A stretch of 14,031 nt of DNA, taken from contig JAUYDJ010000096.1 in assembly GCA_030690025.1 (NCBI GenBank), positions 1 through 14,031 of the forward strand, in the 5' to 3' direction. The stretch's first letter is position 1. Every line of letters starts with the position of its first letter. Source of the DNA: Chloroflexota bacterium (GTDB taxonomy: Bacteria > Chloroflexota > Dehalococcoidia > Dehalococcoidales > JAUYDJ01). The position numbers and the translations under genes were made by a program. Below, in pieces: positions 1,206 to 12,999 of this stretch. The notes beneath the pieces are model-generated. The model made no database searches. It was not told the origin of the DNA and saw only the letters and a list, made by a program, of their open reading frames with translations.

Positions 1206-1808
1206 GTGGTCAGTATAAAACCTATAAAGCTTTTTGGAAATTGGTCTCAAGGGTTCGCTCTTGATTTACACACTGTGAGCAGCGAGTTCTTGGGATACGA
1301 CGAATACGGACATGAAATGTTCGATACAAAAAGAAGCGAAATAGGCGAGTTGCTGTATAAACTCAAATACGGGGCAGACAAGTCTGGCATGAATGAAATT
1401 TTGGACACGGTAGTTAGTTTTCTCAGAGATACATGGAAAATCACTGGAATCCTGGATTGCGTAATACCCGTGCCACCTTCAAAGGCAGATAGAGATTTTC
1501 AGCCTGTCATAGAAATAGCTGCGGGCATAAGCTTGAAGTTGGGAATCCCAGTATACAAAGATGCTTTGAAGAAGATTAAAGTGACGTCTCAGTTCAAAAA
1601 TGTATTCGAATATGAAGAAAGACTCAAACTATTGAGTAATGTGTTTACCGTCACAAGTGCGTTAACTAGTGGAAAGAATATTTTACTTTTTGATGACTTA
1701 TACGGGTCTGGGGCTACTGTTCACACTATAACTCGCGTTTTATGTGAGCAAGGTAAGGCAAGAGGGGTGTACGTGTTGGCGTTAACTAAGACAAGGAGCA
1801 AATCGTGA
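1206..1808 (+). CDS. ComF-like phosphoribosyltransferase without zinc ribbon
   Basis: This 200-residue protein belongs to the type I phosphoribosyltransferase fold. The PRPP-binding loop is FDDLYGSGAT (residues 162-171), matching the (V/I)DDxxxTGAT pattern. The segment IPVPPSK (87-93), followed by a predicted helix and LGIPVYKDALKKIK (112-125), follows the order of ComF proteins. So does an N-terminal LYKLKYG (50-56). The cysteine-rich zinc ribbon that opens classical ComF is absent, and ALDLHT (18-23) takes up the N-terminal region instead. PRTases of this type move a ribose-5-phosphate group between PRPP and a base; which base is unknown. The GTG start has a well-spaced GAGG at 1195-1198. 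The stop TGA overlaps the GTG start of the next gene (GTGA, 1805-1808), so the two are probably translated together. Base composition is clearly AT-richer than the genes on either side, which suggests transfer. Confidence 0.75.
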   Translation: MVSIKPIKLFGNWSQGFALDLHTVSSEFLGYDEYGHEMFDTKRSEIGELLYKLKYGADKSGMNEILDTVVSFLRDTWKITGILDCVIPVPPSKADRDFQPVIEIAAGISLKLGIPVYKDALKKIKVTSQFKNVFEYEERLKLLSNVFTVTSALTSGKNILLFDDLYGSGATVHTITRVLCEQGKARGVYVLALTKTRSKS

Positions 1809-2404
1809 AAAAAGTCTTTATAGGCGGTTCACGAAGGATATCTAGGCTGAACAAAGATATCAAGAGTAAATTGGATCAAGTTATTCGGAAAGGATACACA
1901 GTGCTTATTGGGGATGCAAACGGGACAGATAAAGCTGTGCAGAGTTATCTAGCTAGTAAGAACTATGCGAATGTTCTTGTGTTCTGTATGGCGGATAGAT
2001 GCAGGAATAACATTGGTGACTGGCGAACTAGAGGCATAGAAGTATCTCATAACAACAGAGATTTTTATTATTACGCTACGAAAGACCTGGAAATGGAAAA
2101 GGAAGCGGACTATGGATTTATGATATGGGATGCCAAAAGCAAGGGCACACTCAATAATATCGTGAACCTCCTAAAAGAGGGCAAAAAGACCTTGATTTAC
2201 TTTTCTCCAGAAAAGAGCTTTTATACGCTAGATACTTTTGTTGATTTGGTGGAGATTCTGGCTAAATGTGACCCAAAGTCTGTAGAGGAACTCAAAGAGA
2301 AACTGGGCTTGTCACAATTATTGCCTTTGCCTGACAGTCTTGTTGAATCTACACAGTTAAGATTGCAGTTGGTGGCAAAAGATACAGAGTATCATGGGCA
2401 TTGA
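1805..2404 (+). CDS. SLOG-superfamily (YspA/DUF2493-like) Rossmann protein
   Basis: This 199-residue protein looks like a member of the SLOG superfamily (YspA, DprA and LOG relatives), which bind or cleave nucleotides. Visible landmarks are an N-terminal GGSR (7-10) after the first beta strand and GDANGTDKAV (36-45), which matches the GDAxGAD pattern of DUF2493/YspA proteins. Near 85-116, RDFYYYATKDLEMEKEADYG leads into a FMIWDAKSKGT block (105-115), which matches the (R)Nxxm...AD..i.FWdgxSxGT block of the same family. The last 50 residues are helical and unassigned. The gene overlaps the upstream PRTase by 4 bases, so the pair is likely one transcript and perhaps one pathway or complex. It ends 28 bases before the end of the convergent lipoprotein gene. 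A nucleoside-deoxyribosyltransferase-like activity is an alternative reading. The function is unknown; the fold call is moderately sure. Confidence 0.65.
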   Translation: MKKVFIGGSRRISRLNKDIKSKLDQVIRKGYTVLIGDANGTDKAVQSYLASKNYANVLVFCMADRCRNNIGDWRTRGIEVSHNNRDFYYYATKDLEMEKEADYGFMIWDAKSKGTLNNIVNLLKEGKKTLIYFSPEKSFYTLDTFVDLVEILAKCDPKSVEELKEKLGLSQLLPLPDSLVESTQLRLQLVAKDTEYHGH

Positions 2405-4076: not shown

Positions 4077-4640
4077 CTAAAAATGTGGTTTGCACAAAAT
4101 CTCCTTCACTTTGAGGTCGAAGAAGCGATGGGTGTTTACCGGCCGCACTACGATGGCGGTGTTGGTGCCGCTGTGCCGCCCGGCAATGGCGATAACGTCC
4201 TCTTTGGTATTTACCAGGCCGGCATCGGCGGCCATCATGACGATTTCAACGGCCACCTTCATGCCGTCGCCAAAAAGGCGCAGCGTGTTGGCGATGATTT
4301 CCAGGGTAAGGTACATGTTGAACTTGACCCGCGCCGCCCGGTCCACGCCGGCAAAGGCGTGCGTGGCCGTCAGGACGGTGCCGTGCTTGCTCTCAATCAG
4401 CTTGCGGTTTTCCTCGGTGAAGGACTGGGTATCCGGCTCGTCAAAGCCGGTAGCGTGACTGACCGCAATTACCCGGATGCCCTTGAGTACATCCAGCGCC
4501 TTGAGGGCGGTGGCGCCGCTGGTGGAGGCAATCAGCACGGTCTTGATACCCGCCTCATCGGCGCGCTGCTTGACGATACGCAGCACCTCGTCAATATAGT
4601 TACGCTCGGGGTCTTCAAAATAGACAGTCTTTAGTTCCAT
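4077..4640 (-). CDS. Stand-alone pyruvate kinase C-terminal (alpha/beta) domain protein
   Basis: This 187-residue protein resembles only the C-terminal domain of pyruvate kinase (PK_C), the domain that binds effectors in the full enzyme. Visible blocks are VLIASTSGATALKAL (35-49), IRVIAVSHATGF (55-66), a central helical part with RVKFNMYLTLEIIANTLRLF (104-123) and GRHSGTNTAIVVRP (154-167). The barrel and active-site residues of pyruvate kinase are missing, so it is not a pyruvate kinase. Free-standing PK_C proteins are known in archaea and some bacteria without an assigned role. The ATG has a good AAAGGAGA upstream. It is the first gene of a two-gene operon with the FAH-family enzyme, so a link to oxo-acid metabolism is possible but unproved. 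Confidence 0.8.
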   Translation of the reverse strand: MELKTVYFEDPERNYIDEVLRIVKQRADEAGIKTVLIASTSGATALKALDVLKGIRVIAVSHATGFDEPDTQSFTEENRKLIESKHGTVLTATHAFAGVDRAARVKFNMYLTLEIIANTLRLFGDGMKVAVEIVMMAADAGLVNTKEDVIAIAGRHSGTNTAIVVRPVNTHRFFDLKVKEILCKPHF

Positions 4641-6399: not shown

Positions 6400-7422
6400 A
6401 TGTGGCAGTCAGCCGGACAAACGAGGGCGGTGTCTTTACTCCAGCGCAGCCTGGCGAAGGGGCTCTTGGCCCATGCCTATCTGCTGGTGGGGCCGCCGCG
6501 CGTGGGCAAAATGACGCTGGCCATGGACCTGGCCCGGGCTTTGAACTGTGCGGCGGCGGAGCCTCCCTGCGGCGAATGCGTCTCCTGCCAGAGAGTGGCT
6601 GCCGCCAAGCATCCCGATGTGCAGCTAATCGGCCTGCCCGCCGGGGACAACTCGGTTGAGAAAACTCGCATTGAGATAAGCATCGAACAGATTAGAGATT
6701 TGCAGCACACGGCCAACCTGCCGCCCTTTGAGGGCAAATACAAGGTCTTTATTATTAACGGGGCTGAGCTGCTTTCCAATGAGGCGGCCAACTGCCTGCT
6801 CAAGACCCTGGAGGAGCCGGCCAGCCAGGTGGTTTTTATCTTGCTGACCACCAACGACCGGCTGTTGCCCGCCACGGTAGTCTCACGCTGCCAGCGGCTC
6901 GAATTGCGCCCCCTGGCGGCCAACGAGGTGGAGTCGGCGCTGGGTAAGCGGGGGATTGAGCCGGCCAAGGCCAGGCTGCTGGCCCGGCTTTCCCGCGGCT
7001 GCCTGGGCTGGGCAATTGCGGCGGCGGCTGATGACAGCCTGCTCGATGCGCGTGCTGAGAAAATCGACCGGCTGCTCAATATCGTCCGCGCCGATTACGA
7101 TGAGCGTTTCGTTCAGGCCGGTCAGCTGGCGAGCCAATTCAGCCAGAACCGGAGTGCCGTTTTGGAGACGCTCGACCTGTGGCGGGACTGGTGGCGCGAC
7201 CTGCTGCTGGTCAAAGCCGGATTCGGCGAGGGCGTCACCAATATTGACCGGCTGGCTGTTCTTGACGAAATGGCCAAGAGCTATGACCTGCCGCAGGCCA
7301 GGATGGTGATTAATCATATCCAGGCGGCCGGGGAGCAGCTGAAATTGAATGCTAACCCCCGGCTGGCCCTGGAAGTGCTGATGCTTAATATACCCGCAGG
7401 GAGTGTGGTGAAATATGGCTGA
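6400..7422 (+). CDS. holB: DNA polymerase III delta-prime subunit (clamp loader)
   Basis: Delta-prime is part of the clamp-loader complex that places the beta sliding clamp on primed DNA. The 340-residue protein has the AAA+ clamp-loader layout. Its P-loop-like GPPRVGKM (31-38) has Met where Ser or Thr is normal. It has a zinc module formed by Cys50, Cys57, Cys60 and Cys63, then LLSNEAANCLLKTLEEP (124-140), and the SRC arginine-finger motif (152-154). The damaged P-loop fits delta-prime, which in many bacteria does not hydrolyse ATP, and speaks against tau/gamma. The C-terminal third is helical, as expected for the collar domain. The gene overlaps ricT by 8 bases, the same holB-ricT neighbourhood as in Bacillus. 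A GGCGGA/TCCGCC palindrome (6367-6379) lies in the short leader. Confidence 0.88.
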   Translation: MWQSAGQTRAVSLLQRSLAKGLLAHAYLLVGPPRVGKMTLAMDLARALNCAAAEPPCGECVSCQRVAAAKHPDVQLIGLPAGDNSVEKTRIEISIEQIRDLQHTANLPPFEGKYKVFIINGAELLSNEAANCLLKTLEEPASQVVFILLTTNDRLLPATVVSRCQRLELRPLAANEVESALGKRGIEPAKARLLARLSRGCLGWAIAAAADDSLLDARAEKIDRLLNIVRADYDERFVQAGQLASQFSQNRSAVLETLDLWRDWWRDLLLVKAGFGEGVTNIDRLAVLDEMAKSYDLPQARMVINHIQAAGEQLKLNANPRLALEVLMLNIPAGSVVKYG

Positions 7423-8221
7423 AATTGTTGGCATACGTTTCAAGAGGGCGGGTCGGGTATACTACTTCGACCCGGCCGGCATCGACCTCAAGATAAATGA
7501 CTGTGTGGTGGTGGAGACCAGCCACGGTGTGGAGCTGGGCAAAGTGGTCATTGCCCCGCGGCAGGTGGCCGAAGGTGAGGTAACCGAGCCGCTCAAGCCG
7601 GTAACGCGCAAGGCCACACCCGAAGACATCAAGCGTGTCGAGGACCTGCAGAGCAAAGAAGAAGAGGCGCTGATTGAGTGCGGCAAGCAGATTGCCCGGC
7701 TCAATCTGTCCATGAAACTGCTGACGGCGGAGTATAATCTCGACGGCAGTCGCTTGACCTGCTGCTTCAGCGCCGAGGAGCGGGTGGACTTCCGCGAGCT
7801 GGTCAGAGAGTTGACCCACAGTCTCAAGACACGCGTGGAACTGCGGCAGGTAGGCCCGCGCGATGAGGCCAAGCTGGTGGGCGGTTTTGGCCGGTGCGGG
7901 CGCCAGCTTTGCTGCGCCAGTTTCCTGACTGAGTTCGACCCGATTTCCATCAAGATGGCGAAGGACCAGGACTTACCCCTCAACCCGATGAAGATTTCCG
8001 GGGTGTGCGGCCGCCTGCTGTGCTGCCTGAGCTATGAGCGCGACCAGTACCGTGATATTAAAGCAAAGCTGCCGAAGATGGGGCAGCGGGTATCCACGCC
8101 AACTGGTTTAGGCAGCGTGGTGGGCGTCAATCCACTGCGGGAAACGGTGATGGTGGAGATGGCGGACGAGACCACTCAGGAGCTGTCGCTGGACCAGATT
8201 ACCGTCGTCGAGGGCCCCTAG
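7415..8221 (+). CDS. ricT: PSP1-domain protein RicT (YaaT)
   Basis: The 268-residue product matches the PSP1/RicT family. In Bacillus subtilis RicT forms the Y-complex with RicA and RicF, carries iron-sulfur clusters and helps RNase Y mature certain mRNAs. Here the N-terminal part (EIVGIRFKRAGRVYYFD, 3-19) is followed by a helical stretch. Two cysteine clusters typical of the family follow: GRCGRQLCC (Cys161, Cys166, Cys167) and GVCGRLLCC (Cys198, Cys203, Cys204). The final part (218-268) is a small beta-rich domain. The start ATG lies inside the end of holB with AGGGAG about 11 bases upstream. The stop codon TAG forms half of a CTAG shared with the stop of the convergent HNH gene. The sporulation link in the family name need not hold here. 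Confidence 0.9.
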   Translation: MAEIVGIRFKRAGRVYYFDPAGIDLKINDCVVVETSHGVELGKVVIAPRQVAEGEVTEPLKPVTRKATPEDIKRVEDLQSKEEEALIECGKQIARLNLSMKLLTAEYNLDGSRLTCCFSAEERVDFRELVRELTHSLKTRVELRQVGPRDEAKLVGGFGRCGRQLCCASFLTEFDPISIKMAKDQDLPLNPMKISGVCGRLLCCLSYERDQYRDIKAKLPKMGQRVSTPTGLGSVVGVNPLRETVMVEMADETTQELSLDQITVVEGP

Positions 8222-8967: not shown

Positions 8968-10392
8968 TCATTCAGTGCTTCTCCGGCCGGGGCTTCTTCT
9001 AGCGCCGCGGGGAGTCTCCTTCCGGTTGGAACGCGGGTCAGCACGGAAGTCGGGCGCCATGATGTTCCAGACCAGGCTTAGCTTATGGTCGAGAAAGCGT
9101 GAACTGATGGGGCTGTCAATCTCATCCAGTGAGCAGCGTGTCGTCACCACGGTGGGCAGGCGCGAGTTGTAACGGTAGTTGATGACCTGGTACAGCTTCT
9201 CCTGCGCCCAGGGGGAGGTTGACTGCTCCCCGAAATCGTCCAGGATGAGCAGGGGGGTAGTCTTGACGCCCTCAAAGAGCTGGTCGTAGGAGACCTTGCT
9301 CTCCGGGCTGAAGGTGGAGCGCAGGTGGTCAAGGAAATCGGGTATGACGATGAACAGCGCCGGCTGCTTGGCCTGGTAGCGGTAGTTGGCGATGGCGGCG
9401 GCGAGGTGAGTTTTGCCGCAGCCGGTAACACCCTGTAGTACCAGCCAGCCCTCCGGTGACTTGGCAAAGTTTAGCGCTTCGCGGAAAACGTTCTCCAGGT
9501 TTTCCCGCTGGTCGGGGGGCAGGTTGACCCGTTTGTAGTCGAAGGTCTCAAAAGTCATGGTCTTCTGCAGCTCGAACCCCGGTCCCCAGCCATACTCCTG
9601 GAAGGGCGACGGCTTGCCCTCGATGGCGTATACCTGGCTCAGCCTGGGGTCGGTCAGGCGGGCGCGCACGCGGTCTTCCATCTCGTCAACCGGTGTGCTG
9701 GTGGTAATGACGGTAGGCAGCTCGTTATTGAAGCGGTGATTGAGCAGCTGGTCGAGCTTTTCTCTTGCCCAGGGCGTGCTGGTCTGGGCGCCCAGGTCAT
9801 CCATGATAAGCAGGGGGGCGTTGCGCACCCGGTCGAACAGCTCATCATAGGGTATTTCGCTGGCCGGGCTGAAGGCAGCGCGCAGGTGGTCAAGGAGGTC
9901 GGGGACAGTCTGGAAAAAGACCGGGTAGCCGTGCTTGATGCGCTCGTTGGCGATGGCGGCGGCCAGGTGGGTCTTACCGCAGCCGCTGGCGCCAATCAGT
10001 ACCAGCCAGCCTTTCGGTTCGGCGGCAAATGCCTTAGCCGCCTCGTAGGCACGTTTGAACCTGGCCTGATTGGCCGGGTCACCGCTTCTACCCTCGGGGA
10101 GCAGGTTATCAAAGGTGAGGCGGGTCAGCGTACCCAGGTTGCTGTAGCGCTCGAGGCGGGCCTGGCTTTCTTTATCCAGCTCAGCGCGGGCGCAGCGGCA
10201 GGGCTTGGCCTTGCCGAAGTCGGGATGCCCCAGCGGCACATCGGCATAGACAAAGCCGGCGCCTTTGCATACGGGACAGACAGAGTCAGGCGGTGTTTCC
10301 CTGGCGTCAGCGCTGGACCATGTGTCCGTATTTGCCTTTGACGTATTTGTCGGGGTCTTCCTTCTTCGTAGAATCTCGCTGATATGCTCCAT
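8968..10392 (-). CDS. DnaC/DnaI-like helicase loader with two tandem AAA+ domains
   Basis: With the ATG at 10392 the product has 474 residues, about twice the length of DnaC or DnaI. An N-terminal zinc-finger-like module uses Cys39, Cys42, Cys65 and Cys67 (CPVC ... CRC). AAA+ domain 1 (about 88-258) has Walker A GASGCGKT (134-141) and Walker B LLIMDDL (194-200). Domain 2 (about 278-450) has GVTGCGKT (321-328) and LLILDDF (381-387). The two copies align well throughout (GWLVL, HLAAAIAN, DHLR, FSP, LPTV), so they come from internal duplication. Only domain 2 keeps the SRF and APDFR blocks typical of DnaC ends. The protein should load or remodel DnaB, encoded two genes upstream. The longer start at 10434 is less likely: GAAGG stands 8 bases before ATG 10392. 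Even so the gene overlaps the DnaD-like gene by 86 bases in another frame. Confidence 0.85.
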   Translation of the reverse strand: MEHISEILRRRKTPTNTSKANTDTWSSADARETPPDSVCPVCKGAGFVYADVPLGHPDFGKAKPCRCARAELDKESQARLERYSNLGTLTRLTFDNLLPEGRSGDPANQARFKRAYEAAKAFAAEPKGWLVLIGASGCGKTHLAAAIANERIKHGYPVFFQTVPDLLDHLRAAFSPASEIPYDELFDRVRNAPLLIMDDLGAQTSTPWAREKLDQLLNHRFNNELPTVITTSTPVDEMEDRVRARLTDPRLSQVYAIEGKPSPFQEYGWGPGFELQKTMTFETFDYKRVNLPPDQRENLENVFREALNFAKSPEGWLVLQGVTGCGKTHLAAAIANYRYQAKQPALFIVIPDFLDHLRSTFSPESKVSYDQLFEGVKTTPLLILDDFGEQSTSPWAQEKLYQVINYRYNSRLPTVVTTRCSLDEIDSPISSRFLDHKLSLVWNIMAPDFRADPRSNRKETPRGARRSPGRRSTE

Positions 10393-11020
10393 CACTCTTA
10401 CCTTCGGCGGACCACCGCTCCAGAATGGCGGCAATATATCTCCAGTTGCGCTTGTTCAGGTTGACGGCTTCTTTGATAGCCTCTCTAATCCAGCTTTCCG
10501 GGTACTGCTTGGCGGCGTCACGCAGTTCTTCGGCTACCATCGGGGTGAGCAGTCCGATGTTCTGCTCATACAGGGTGAAAATGTCAGGCAGCTCCGCTAG
10601 TTTAACATAAGGCGTCCCGGTCACTTTCAGTCCCGGCAGGGGAAGCTCGCCGCTCTGGATTTTGGCCGTAACCTGGCGGTTTGCCTCGGTGTTAAGCAGG
10701 TATATATCTTCAGCGGCCCCGTCTCTATCCAGCGTGACGTGCAGGAAAGTCCCCCGCTGCGCCGCCATGTCCAGGGCGGCGCGTAATGCCTTGTCCGCTT
10801 CGGCAGACTCGTCAAAGCCGCTCATCAGGCTTTTACTCGCCAGCAGCTCACGAAGGGTGACAAAGCGCGGCGAGCCTTTTTTGTGATAGAGGGTGCCCAG
10901 AATGTGAAGCGTGACTTTTAGCTCCGCCATGTCTTCGATTTGCGGCAGCAGGGTAGAGAAGAAAAAATTGGGGATGGGGGTAAACTCCATCCGGGGCGGG
11001 AAACCAGCAATCGGCTTCAT
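10307..11020 (-). CDS. DnaD-domain primosomal protein
   Basis: The 237-residue protein carries a DnaD-type C-terminal domain at about 136-203. Its main blocks are IFTLYEQNIGLLTPMVAEEL (137-156), PESWIREAIKEAVNLNKRNW (164-183) and a RYIAAILERW ending (184-193). The N-terminal part (about 11-110) looks like a winged-helix domain, as in DnaD of Gram-positive bacteria. It ends in a basic tail, DKYVKGKYGHMV. DnaD proteins bind DNA and DnaA and help bring the helicase and its loader to the origin or to stalled forks. The ATG overlaps the dnaB stop as ATGA (11017-11020), pointing to translational coupling. Its own 3' end overlaps the loader gene by 86 bases. The context, dnaB before and a DnaC-like protein after, supports a primosome role. 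Confidence 0.8.
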   Translation of the reverse strand: MKPIAGFPPRMEFTPIPNFFFSTLLPQIEDMAELKVTLHILGTLYHKKGSPRFVTLRELLASKSLMSGFDESAEADKALRAALDMAAQRGTFLHVTLDRDGAAEDIYLLNTEANRQVTAKIQSGELPLPGLKVTGTPYVKLAELPDIFTLYEQNIGLLTPMVAEELRDAAKQYPESWIREAIKEAVNLNKRNWRYIAAILERWSAEGKSDGAYQRDSTKKEDPDKYVKGKYGHMVQR

Positions 11021-12396
11021 AGCAGGCTCGGCTCTTCGCGGGCGGTGCTCATGTCTTCAAACTTGGCTGTCTCCGGCGTGAAGCGCAGGTCTATTTCACC
11101 GGTGGGGCCATTGCGGTTCTTGGCGGTGATGATGTTGGCGATGCCTTTGGGATACTCCTGTCCACCGTGTTCGACTTCCCACTCCTCCGGAGTCTTGAAG
11201 TAGTAATCATCCCGGTAAATGAACAGGACAAGGTCGGCGTCCTGCTCAATGGCGCCGCTTTCACGCAGGTCGGAGAGCTGGGGCCTGTGGGTGGCGCGGA
11301 ACTCCACGGCGCGGCTGAGCTGGGAGACAGCCAGCACCGGCGCATTTAGCTCGCGGGCCAGGGCTTTAAGGGCGCGGGAGATGTAGCTGATTTCCTGGAC
11401 GCGGTTTTCCGACTTCCCGTCGCCCTGCATCAGCTGTAAATAGTCGATAATGATGAGGTCGATGCCGCGCTCGAAATGAAGGCGCCGGGCTTTGCTGCGT
11501 ACCTGGGAGGCGCGCAGCATGGGGTAATCATCGATATAAATCTGGGTCTCGGCGAGGAGGCCCTGGGCCTCCATGATTCTCTTTTCCTCGTTTCCACCGT
11601 CAGGGTGCTTTTCGTGGGGGACACGCCGCGAATTGACGCCGGACTCGCTGGACAGCAGGCGCTGCACCAGGGAATCGCGCGACATCTCCAGGCTGAACAG
11701 GGCCACGCAAGCGCCCTGCTCCACGGCGGCATTCCGGGCCACACTCAAAGCAAAGCTGGTCTTGCCCATGCTGGGCCGTCCGGCCACGATAATCAGGTCG
11801 GCGCGCTGAAAACCGCCCAGGAACTCGTCTAGCTTACTGAAGCCGGAGCGGACGAATGGGAGCGGGGCTCCAGGGGTGGGCGTGCTGGTGGTGGTCTCAA
11901 AGTATTTGTCCAGCACCTGGCGGATATGTACCAGGTCCTGGTTGCTCTGCCCGTGGCGCAGCCGGTATAAAAGTTCCTCGGAACGGCTTAAGCTGGCCTC
12001 AACGTCGACTTCGCTGCTGTAGCCAATAGCGGTAATCTGGTTGCCGGCATCGATGAGGCGGCGCAGTATGGACAGGCGGTAGACGATTTGGGCATAGGAC
12101 TCGATGTCCAGCGAGGTAGGGCAGCTGGCGATGAGTTGGCTTAAATAGGCGGCGCCGCCAACGGTCTCCAGCTTTTTCTCGCGGTTAAGCTCCTGGGCCA
12201 CCGAAATCTGGTTTATCGCCTCGCCGCGCTGATAAATAGACAGGCAGGCCTGATAAATCAACCGGTTCGGCTCATGGTAAAAGTCCGCCGACTGCAGGAA
12301 GGAGTCAACCTTGTAAATCGACTCAGCGTCTATCAGCAGCGAGCCGTTGACAGCTTCTTCAGCATCGATGTCATGCGGTGGCAGCTTTTCATTCAA
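11017..12396 (-). CDS. dnaB: Replicative DNA helicase DnaB
   Basis: DnaB is the hexameric helicase that unwinds DNA at the replication fork. This protein has 459 residues, a normal length. The N-terminal domain begins KLPPHDIDAEEAVNGSLLID (4-23). The RecA-like motor domain has Walker A GRPSMGKTS (206-214), FSLEMSRD (234-241), Walker B LIIIDYLQLM (314-323), VLAVSQLSR (354-362) and LRESGAIEQDADLVLFIYR (377-395) near the arginine finger. No intein or insertion is seen. The start is TTG at 12396: no ATG or GTG lies in frame before the conserved N-terminus, and the ATG at 12392 is in another frame. The Shine-Dalgarno sequence GAGGAG (12412-12407) sits inside the repeat tail of the L9 gene, which dnaB overlaps by 8 bases. 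Confidence 0.95.
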   Translation of the reverse strand: MNEKLPPHDIDAEEAVNGSLLIDAESIYKVDSFLQSADFYHEPNRLIYQACLSIYQRGEAINQISVAQELNREKKLETVGGAAYLSQLIASCPTSLDIESYAQIVYRLSILRRLIDAGNQITAIGYSSEVDVEASLSRSEELLYRLRHGQSNQDLVHIRQVLDKYFETTTSTPTPGAPLPFVRSGFSKLDEFLGGFQRADLIIVAGRPSMGKTSFALSVARNAAVEQGACVALFSLEMSRDSLVQRLLSSESGVNSRRVPHEKHPDGGNEEKRIMEAQGLLAETQIYIDDYPMLRASQVRSKARRLHFERGIDLIIIDYLQLMQGDGKSENRVQEISYISRALKALARELNAPVLAVSQLSRAVEFRATHRPQLSDLRESGAIEQDADLVLFIYRDDYYFKTPEEWEVEHGGQEYPKGIANIITAKNRNGPTGEIDLRFTPETAKFEDMSTAREEPSLL

Positions 12397-12940
12397 CCTT
12401 CTCGGTCTCCTCTGTCTTCTCGGTCTTCTCGGCCTTCTTGGCCTTCTTGGGTTTCTCGGTCTCCTCGGTCTTCTCGGTCTCCTCGGCCTTCTCGGTCTCC
12501 TCGGCGATAACGTTGACCTTGATTACCGGTGTCAGGTCTTTGCCCAGCTTGATGATGACCTCGTGGCTGCCGAGTTGGCGGATGGGGTCGGCTAATTCAA
12601 TCTTCCTTTTGTCGACGATGAGTTTGGCCTTCTCCAGCTCACTGGCGATATCGGCGTTGGTAATAGAGCCGTAAAGCTGGCCTTTTTCTCCTGCCTTGGC
12701 CTTGAGGGTAATTTCCTTGCCTTCCAGCCGTTTTGCCAGCTCATTCATCTGGGCTTCTTCCTGGGCCTGGGCGCGCTCCTTGATTTTATTTTGCATTTCG
12801 GTAAGGCTGAGCGCTGCCGGCACCGCCAGCACGGCCAGCTTTTTGGGCAGAAGGTAGTTCCGGCCGTAGCCGTCAGCTACCTCCTTGATATCACCGGCCG
12901 TAGCCACTTTGGGCACATCCTGCAGAAAAATAACTTTCAT
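12389..12940 (-). CDS. rplI: 50S ribosomal protein L9 with a charged repeat tail
   Basis: L9 binds 23S rRNA near the L1 stalk. The ATG at 12940 gives 183 residues: the N-domain starts MKVIFLQDVPKVATAGD with the signature GYGRNYLLPKK (24-34). The connecting helix follows (about 40-75), then the C-domain (about 77-146). Typical bacterial L9 is about 148-150 residues. Here an extra tail of some 37 residues follows, made of EETEK and KKAKKAEKTEK units. A longer start at 12970 would begin on top of the predicted -10 box and has no support. AAAGG stands 9 bases before the ATG. The gene overlaps dnaB by 8 bases and heads the rplI-dnaB-dnaD-like-dnaC-like run. Confidence 0.93.
   Translation of the reverse strand: MKVIFLQDVPKVATAGDIKEVADGYGRNYLLPKKLAVLAVPAALSLTEMQNKIKERAQAQEEAQMNELAKRLEGKEITLKAKAGEKGQLYGSITNADIASELEKAKLIVDKRKIELADPIRQLGSHEVIIKLGKDLTPVIKVNVIAEETEKAEETEKTEETEKPKKAKKAEKTEKTEETEKVE
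12397..12412 (-). promoter_or_regulatory. Ribosome binding site of dnaB inside the L9 repeat tail
   Basis: GAGGAG (12412-12407) lies 10 bases before the TTG start of dnaB, and an AAGG touches the start codon. The GAGGAG belongs to the repeated codons of the L9 tail, and equivalent GAGGAG copies occur further upstream in the same tail. This site decides in favour of the TTG at 12396. Confidence 0.5.
12399..12504. repeat. rplI: Degenerate purine-rich tandem repeat encoding the L9 tail
   Basis: On the minus strand the DNA is built from GAGGAGACC and GAGAAG-type units, nearly all purines plus CC. The units are multiples of three bases and encode the EETEK/EKTEK tail. Copy number changes here would not shift the frame but would change the tail length and the number of Shine-Dalgarno-like GAGGAG copies before dnaB. 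Confidence 0.7.
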
Positions 12941-12969
12941 AGTTTCTACCTTTCTATAAATTACCCCCA

Positions 12970-12999
12970 ATTATACGACAACCCGGTGGTTAAGGGAAA
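12970..12999 (-). promoter_or_regulatory. Candidate promoter of the rplI-dnaB cluster
   Basis: A perfect TATAAT lies at 12975-12970 on the minus strand, about 30 bases before the L9 ATG. A weak -35, TTTCCC, lies 18 bases further upstream (12999-12994). The transcript would begin near 12963, which rules out the in-frame codon at 12970 as the L9 start. Confidence 0.45.

Follow-up and report, generated by a model that had tools for sequence, protein, structure and literature searches.

A mobile phosphoribosyltransferase–SLOG gene pair in a Chloroflexota contig: a candidate toxin–antitoxin module related to PsyrTA and ShosTA

The locus and its two proteins

The stretch of DNA analyzed here (14,031 nucleotides, referred to as the window) is the whole of contig JAUYDJ010000096.1 of assembly GCA_030690025.1, a 1.56-Mb draft genome of a Chloroflexota bacterium that is 75% complete. 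It carries on the forward strand a gene for a phosphoribosyltransferase (PRTase; 1206-1808, 200 amino acids), followed by a gene for a SLOG-like protein (1805-2404, 199 amino acids), both with a GTG start. We suggest that the two form a mobile toxin–antitoxin module, in which the PRTase, a member of the PsyrT/ShosT PRTase group, is the proposed toxin, and the second protein, which is small, resembles the SLOG/DprA core and has no helix-turn-helix (HTH) tail, is the proposed antitoxin. The genes overlap in the sequence GTGA (1805-1808), which holds the stop of the first and the start of the second and suggests that their translation is coupled. Each start has a Shine-Dalgarno-like sequence, recognized by eye, six bases to its 5′ side: GAGGA (1195-1199) for the PRTase gene and AAGGAG (1793-1798), within the PRTase gene, for the SLOG gene. 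The pair is separated from the alpha/beta hydrolase gene upstream of it by a terminator-like hairpin with a T run (1079-1109), and a promoter scan of positions 1000-2600 gave 5 sites against 2.9 expected. The overlap, the Shine-Dalgarno-like sequences and the hairpin read on the forward strand, as do the motifs: the loop FDDLYGSGAT for phosphoribosyl pyrophosphate (PRPP) at PRTase residues 162-171 (1689-1718) and, in the SLOG-like protein, GGSR at residues 7-10 (1823-1834; invariant or nearly so in the SLOG alignment), GDANGTD at residues 36-42 (1910-1930; aligned with GxAxGxD of DprA-like proteins) and a WDAKSKGT block at residues 108-115 (2126-2149; its counterpart in DprA-like proteins is the SGT region).

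The initial annotation, made from the letters alone, had described the overlapping genes, these four motifs and a base composition unlike that of the flanks, and all of this was confirmed. The GC content is 0.408 for the PRTase gene, 0.398 for the SLOG gene and 0.403 for the pair, against 0.572 for the remainder of the window, and the GC content at third codon positions is 0.42 for the pair, against 0.62-0.79 in the 13 other tabulated genes of the window. However, low GC marks the family as a whole: of the 72 relatives with enough flank, 68 have a pair that is richer in AT than the surrounding DNA (mean difference −0.074), and none of these 72 is more than 0.05 GC-richer than its surroundings. 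The composition is therefore only indirect evidence, and no proof, of a recent arrival in this genome. In 41 related genomes compared in search of an empty site, the two flanking genes are both present only in the window's own genome and in G298, and their wide separation in G298 meant that no insertion site could be demonstrated.

The best match of the window PRTase in PADLOC is PsyrT (E 1.8e-19), covering positions 536-687 of 689; the match is thus confined to the PRTase end of PsyrT, and the 200-residue protein is without the RecQ-family helicase. The ShosT model follows (E 1.9e-6), and the matches to PRTase_III-A are weak (E 8.4e-5). Pfam Pribosyltran is matched below its cut-off (E 0.0031), and NCBIfam comF is matched at E 2.6e-11 with 43.8 bits against a cut-off of 233.55. 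Since the ComF matches in 18 of the 19 genomes searched also fall below 233.55, the comF score alone is a weak criterion. The protein has no CxxC and so no zinc ribbon, whereas all six ComF proteins checked alongside have CxxC. In an alignment of 29 PRTases, the window's included, 31 columns are identical in every row. The Asp-Asp PRPP loop was found in 87 of the 92 loci read, the other five having a broken frame or another stretch picked, and the two residues at 167-168 are Arg-Ser in 70 of these 87.

The second protein is harder to place. That of the window has only marginal matches, one in NCBIfam (E 0.046) and two in PHROGs, one of them to a DprA-like family (E 0.053). Faint links come from relatives, namely to Pfam DprA (L130, E 1.4e-4), to the SLOG family YAcAr (L010, E 0.0085) and, in relatives only, to ShosA (L130, E 0.0026; L072, E 0.0077). 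When a profile of 100 SLOG sequences was aligned with nine DprA-like antitoxins using hhalign, 129 columns were covered with an E-value of 0.0024 and a probability of 12; in this alignment GGSR falls on GSR and GDANGTD on GxAxGxD. We consider the protein SLOG-like and, judging by these profile and motif alignments, a SLOG fold likely. The label "YspA-like" given by the initial annotation found no support, as the protein has no Pfam match at all up to E 1. Kinship to YspA/DUF2493 was also rejected by hhalign (E 0.32 against a DUF2493, or YAcAr, set), in a comparison that is weak since the set of five is nearly uniform.

It could be argued that the two genes are decayed or idle and have no present function in this genome. 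Residue 167, in the PRPP loop of the PRTase, is Gly instead of the Arg of most relatives, and there is no close relative for a selection test. However, both frames are full length with the conserved columns and motifs of the family, and the ribosome-binding-like sites and the overlap are present. We regard decay as very unlikely.

Conservation of the pair and exchange of its partner

At E ≤ 1e-3, 861 homologues of the PRTase and 2387 of the SLOG protein were found. The 80 best of 163 PRTase relatives on genome contigs were taken as loci. In 77 of them the SLOG gene follows the PRTase gene on the same strand. The pairing noted by the initial annotation is thus real. The overlap is exactly 4 bases in 61 of these 77; the SLOG gene is cut by the contig end in L017 and L052. 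The loci with a named phylum cover 18 phyla. In the PRTase tree, the 33 paired loci of named phylum, from 14 phyla, require 21 phylum changes against a minimum of 13, and the count stays at 21 when the window sequence is left out. The SLOG protein was found in 47 of the 49 searched genomes of these loci, in single copy in all but one. In L020, a second SLOG copy (6958-7830), matching model positions 2-121 of 183, lies about 3 kb downstream of an intact pair. The distances among PRTases correlate with those among SLOG proteins (r 0.78, 44 pairs, none of 2000 permutations as high), but this is expected of any co-inherited pair and is not taken as evidence of contact.

A maximum-likelihood tree was calculated for 73 PRTases, including 16 ComF proteins (that of the window's own genome among them), six PsyrT and three ShosT. 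The PRTases with a SLOG partner and those with a DprA partner form one clade (100/97), which, together with the six PsyrT and two of the three ShosT, is split from the 16 ComF at 96/87. The clade of the window PRTase is sister to PsyrT and not inside it. The two ShosT in this half of the tree sit on a branch of length 3.4; the third (L118, called by PADLOC) lies outside on a branch of length 5.6 and carries no weight. The initial annotation had called the PRTase ComF-like but without a zinc ribbon. The missing ribbon stands, but the kinship to ComF is contradicted by the tree and by the low comF score.

In the three remaining loci of the 80 (L063, L073 and L076), a DprA-like gene occupies the position of the SLOG gene. 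Its products match PADLOC PsyrA (E 9.7e-51, 6.9e-55 and 7.7e-59, respectively), as well as ShosA and Pfam DNA_processg_A, and a search of two of the three genomes found no SLOG gene elsewhere. Within one PRTase clade, the small SLOG protein and a DprA-type partner thus stand in for one another, and either may have been the original.

It has to be considered whether this is a competence or nucleotide-salvage pair, ComFC with a DprA-like helper, that serves DNA uptake or ordinary metabolism. Public annotation often labels the PRTase a "ComF family protein", and ComFC and DprA are both DNA-uptake proteins. However, the PRTase stands apart from ComF in the tree and has no zinc ribbon, and 18 of the 19 genomes searched have a further ComF match at another place. 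Presence is also patchy: of 400 genomes from the phylum of the window, 3 have the SLOG protein, paired in each. We consider this reading very improbable. The evidence instead supports a conserved two-gene unit that has been spread by transfer and is tied to conflict systems, as the initial annotation had proposed; its occurrence on plasmids and in P2-like prophages and its kinship to PsyrTA and ShosTA are in agreement with this.

Helix-turn-helix tails, broken PRTase genes and mobile elements

Eight loci encode a longer SLOG protein, of about 285 residues, with a C-terminal tail of the dnstrm_HI1420 family ("probable addiction module antidote protein"), which was confirmed with Pfam in L033, L046, L051, L071 and L072 and assigned by tail motif and public annotation in L129, L133 and L148. 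Three plasmid loci have a different HTH tail, HTH_37 (by Pfam in L131 and L140, by likeness in L150). The palindrome TGTAACC-N4-GGYTACA occurs seven times in the 998,901 bases of 93 loci, always just upstream of the PRTase gene in an HI1420-type locus, and the eighth such locus, L072, has a degenerate copy. The sequence TACAARATYTTGTA occurs three times in the same bases, always upstream of an HTH_37-type pair. Neither palindrome was found in five rounds of simulated sequence. Both motifs were defined after these loci had been viewed, so the counts are descriptive, and it is the symmetry, the place and the match to the tail type that carry weight. Eleven relatives therefore combine an HTH-tailed SLOG protein with an upstream palindrome, which is exact in ten; seven of the tails were checked with Pfam. 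A copy of the palindrome with one mismatch also lies upstream in L032, where the SLOG gene extends up to the end of the contig.

Decay was surveyed in 94 loci, 91 of them with both genes, using a cut-off of our own for a broken gene. The PRTase is broken and the SLOG gene whole in five (L025, L055, L062, L082 and L147), and the reverse was found in none, contig ends aside. Both genes are short in L029, and the PRTase frames of L059 and L148 stop at about model position 165 of 200 and yet passed the cut-off. On plasmid pM308-NDM1 (L147), an IS3-type transposase gene interrupts the PRTase gene next to a SLOG gene that is whole.

In the plasmid collection, the PRTase matches 64 records and the SLOG protein 97, many of them near-copies; 41 of the 64 are typed conjugative. 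Two records filed as plasmids that match both genes, NZ_CP119142.1 and NZ_CP119140.1, are chromosome-sized (about 2.17 Mb) and come from Neisseria gonorrhoeae. In ten of the plasmid regions read, the SLOG gene lacks a PRTase within about 4 kb. Nine of these are alphaproteobacterial, on plasmids of which six are typed conjugative. Their SLOG proteins form one clade (94/84) inside the clade of paired SLOG proteins fused to HI1420 (95/99) and have lost the HI1420 tail as well as the toxin partner. A PRTase match is missing from eight of the nine plasmids, and that on the ninth covers only 35 residues (E 6e-4). Loss of the toxin with retention of the partner is the pattern expected of orphan antitoxins. 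A DUF736 gene follows the PRTase-less SLOG gene in all seven rhizobial-type plasmids (L134, L136, L137 and L143-L146); within the stretches shown, DUF2493 lies upstream in six of them, and toprim and differing toxin–antitoxin genes are present in five each. The tenth region, on a Planktothrix plasmid (L141, 3989-5365), has a SLOG fragment of 125 residues on a long branch and, close by, a second SLOG protein, which belongs to the YpsA family.

We suggest that the PRTase acts as the toxin and the minimal SLOG protein as the antitoxin that neutralizes it. This assignment draws on the exchange with DprA-type antitoxins, the HTH tails with their palindromes, the decay that hits the PRTase and the PRTase-less SLOG genes on plasmids. 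A bolder proposal is that the pair represents an unrecognized, multi-phylum family of minimal PRTase–SLOG defense systems, in which DprA was exchanged for a SLOG core, and that the PRTase-less SLOG proteins of alphaproteobacterial plasmids are orphan antitoxins with a counter-defense role. We put this forward tentatively, at somewhat less than an even chance. If true, the orphan SLOG antitoxins would let a plasmid enter cells armed with the PRTase toxin.

The initial annotation had instead supposed that the pair might make a modified nucleotide and either sense or destroy it. In such a nucleotide-signal immunity, the PRTase would make a modified nucleotide upon infection and the SLOG protein would read it as effector or sensor, as in Thoeris. 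In its favor, cyclic ADP-ribose isomers activate SLOG-containing ThsA effectors (PMC11204291), and the pair is linked to mobile elements. However, the fusions seen are antitoxin-type HTH tails and not effectors, the SLOG gene persists beside a broken PRTase and, on plasmids, occurs without a PRTase gene, and the PRTase family otherwise pairs with DprA-type antitoxins. The genetics thus point to a PRTase toxin and a SLOG antitoxin, and we judge a signaling role unlikely.

Twelve plasmid regions bearing the pair were read; they were hand-chosen and some are related. An annotated defense gene lies within about 5 kb in six of them. The pair stands beside a CBASS cluster on a conjugative plasmid of Agrobacterium rubi, with a Rhizobium plasmid of similar order, and beside SIR2 and nucleotidyltransferase genes on a Sinorhizobium plasmid, and restriction genes lie near it on plasmids of E. 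coli, Enterobacter and Sagittula. Elsewhere it directly follows rep on pLI100 of Listeria innocua and adjoins IncFII repA on a Klebsiella pneumoniae plasmid and ParA/ParB on a Methylorubrum plasmid. A test for defense islands covered 150 of 153 neighbors, from 40 of the 80 loci. No PADLOC family (172 families in all, 25 of them listed) matched more than 2 of these 150 chromosomal neighbors. The nearness to defense genes that the initial annotation had raised is seen in six of the hand-chosen plasmid regions; the chromosomal relatives lie in no evident defense islands.

In E. coli, a close copy is present in 8 of 5426 complete genomes, one on a plasmid and seven chromosomal. In the four chromosomal regions read, at two chromosomal sites, the pair lies in a P2-like prophage between ogr and a VgrG/Pvc8-type gene, which we take to be gpD of P2. 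In the other three chromosomes, the whole of that prophage interval is matched at 99.8% or more. A Hok/Gef gene is one gene away from the prophage pair, and the prophage pair has no match in the viral collections searched. The interval before ogr (L195-L199) holds varying cargo, namely the pair in E. coli chromosomes and another gene in phage 500465-2. It may represent a second cargo site of P2-like elements besides the hotspot at cos.

These locations raise the question whether the module serves only addiction, that is, the stability of a plasmid or prophage, with no anti-phage role. The pair beside plasmid replication and partition genes (pLI100 rep, IncFII repA, ParA/ParB), the Hok/Gef gene one gene away in prophages and the 64 plasmid records, many of them near-copies and 41 conjugative, would fit such a role. 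However, the pair is found in contigs of 18 named phyla, and the 25 commonest Pfam families listed for the 150 neighbors are mostly metabolic or general and include no plasmid genes. Furthermore, kin systems are reported to defend against phages (PMC9122126), and half of the twelve plasmid regions have a defense gene close by. We consider pure maintenance a serious but less likely alternative. It is probable, in our view, that the pair is a mobile toxin–antitoxin module, with abortive-infection phage defense as its most likely role and stabilization of its carrier element as a further one.

Proposed mechanism and relation to known systems

By analogy with RqlH/PsyrT and ShosT, the PRTase would poison DNA metabolism, acting on PRPP and purine nucleotides. 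The study PMC4670107 describes RqlH, a PsyrT, as genotoxic through its PRTase domain, with changes in the PRPP pocket removing most of the effect, and the DprA-like RqlI as binding RqlH and countering its toxicity. ShosT is reported to be a PRTase and pyrophosphatase that disturbs purine metabolism and is countered by ShosA (PMC12593503, on Pu et al. 2025). The SLOG protein, presumably made by coupled translation from its overlapping start, would bind and silence the PRTase, as a stripped-down stand-in for PsyrA/RqlI and ShosA, whose Rossmann-like core is of similar size. The HTH-tailed SLOG proteins of some relatives may repress their own promoter through the dedicated palindrome. The toxin could then be freed by an infection that upsets the complex of the two proteins, or when the element is lost.

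The closest named system is PsyrTA (RqlHI), which has the nearest named PRTase domain and the same order of toxin gene before antitoxin gene. A PsyrA-like partner occurs in three of the 80 relatives of the window's PRTase family, and RqlI has a predicted C-terminal HTH (PMC4670107), as do some SLOG relatives. However, the window pair has no RecQ-like helicase, and its 199-residue SLOG-like partner has no PADLOC PsyrA match. With ShosTA it shares a stand-alone PRTase of similar size, but a DprA-like gene comes first in the three ShosT loci read (L116-L118), whereas the partner in the window comes second, is smaller and has no ShosA match. Since neither the helicase nor a DprA partner was found, we regard the pair as a variant of the PsyrTA/ShosTA kind and a member of neither.

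Other systems share single features with it. The DprA and PRTase system of Rousset et al. 2022 (PMC9122126), which is reported to protect E. coli against T7 and lambda, is likewise carried by P2-like prophages and pairs a PRTase with a partner of the DprA/SLOG type. It sits in a hotspot beside cos, between gpA and gpQ, whereas the E. coli SLOG pair lies before ogr and has a small SLOG partner. Type III-A retrons also use a PRTase as effector, but no reverse transcriptase was recognized by eye among the open reading frames of the window and there is no Rfam match at 900-2700; a retron or an RNA antitoxin was rejected on these grounds. ComFC/ComF has the PRTase core in common and differs in zinc ribbon, clade and partner. 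Type II toxin–antitoxin systems are likewise built of two small, co-directed, overlapping genes, but the DNA-binding antitoxin domain and its operator, to which the HTH tail and upstream palindrome of eleven relatives would correspond, are missing in the window. The literature searched, from which most subscription papers were absent, describes no PRTase paired with a small SLOG protein. The remark of the initial annotation that no named system has exactly this pairing therefore holds for the models and literature searched, but PsyrTA and ShosTA are close named kin. The DefensePredictor paper (PMC13092281) validated a system labeled "PRTase", the make-up of which is not established in the part available, and this calls for caution on novelty.

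PRTase toxins recur in phage defense, as in PsyrTA, ShosTA and retrons, and the family described here would be a natural minimal version of such a system, in which a small SLOG core seems enough as partner. How partners hold a PRTase toxin could thus be mapped on a small complex. PADLOC would miss the family, as only the PRTase end of PsyrT is matched and nothing is matched for the SLOG protein.

Several observations weigh against a toxin–antitoxin module with a defense role. The SLOG protein of the window has no Pfam or PADLOC match up to E 1 and no credible PDB match, and the hhalign probability of only 12 to DprA-like antitoxins gives its SLOG fold weak support. Residue 167 of the window PRTase is Gly where Arg prevails, Gly-Ser being found also in L024. 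HTH tail and palindrome are both absent from the window copy, as they are from most relatives. Five broken PRTase genes against no broken SLOG gene is a small count to which errors in draft genomes may contribute. Chromosomal neighbors show no recurrent defense family. Finally, 50,697 phage records yielded no SLOG match and one weak PRTase match, and IMG/VR yielded no confirmed locus.

Three other genes of the window, all on the reverse strand, deserve mention. At 8968-10434, a DnaC/IstB-like protein of 488 amino acids is encoded that has two tandem ATPase cores (IstB_IS21 is matched in two stretches); the gene adjoins a gene with a DnaB_2 domain (10307-11020) and a replicative helicase gene. 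Of at least 120 relatives of the DnaB encoded in the window, those named by organism are two from Dehalococcoidales, one from Desulfobacteraceae and one Omnitrophota draft genome. For the stand-alone protein of 187 amino acids encoded at 4077-4640, the match is limited to the pyruvate kinase C-terminal domain (PK_C, E 4e-11). At 12389-12970 lies a gene for a protein that by eye resembles ribosomal protein L9 and has a repetitive C-terminal tail rich in Glu, Lys and Thr, which is encoded by an 18-base tandem repeat (12397-12505).

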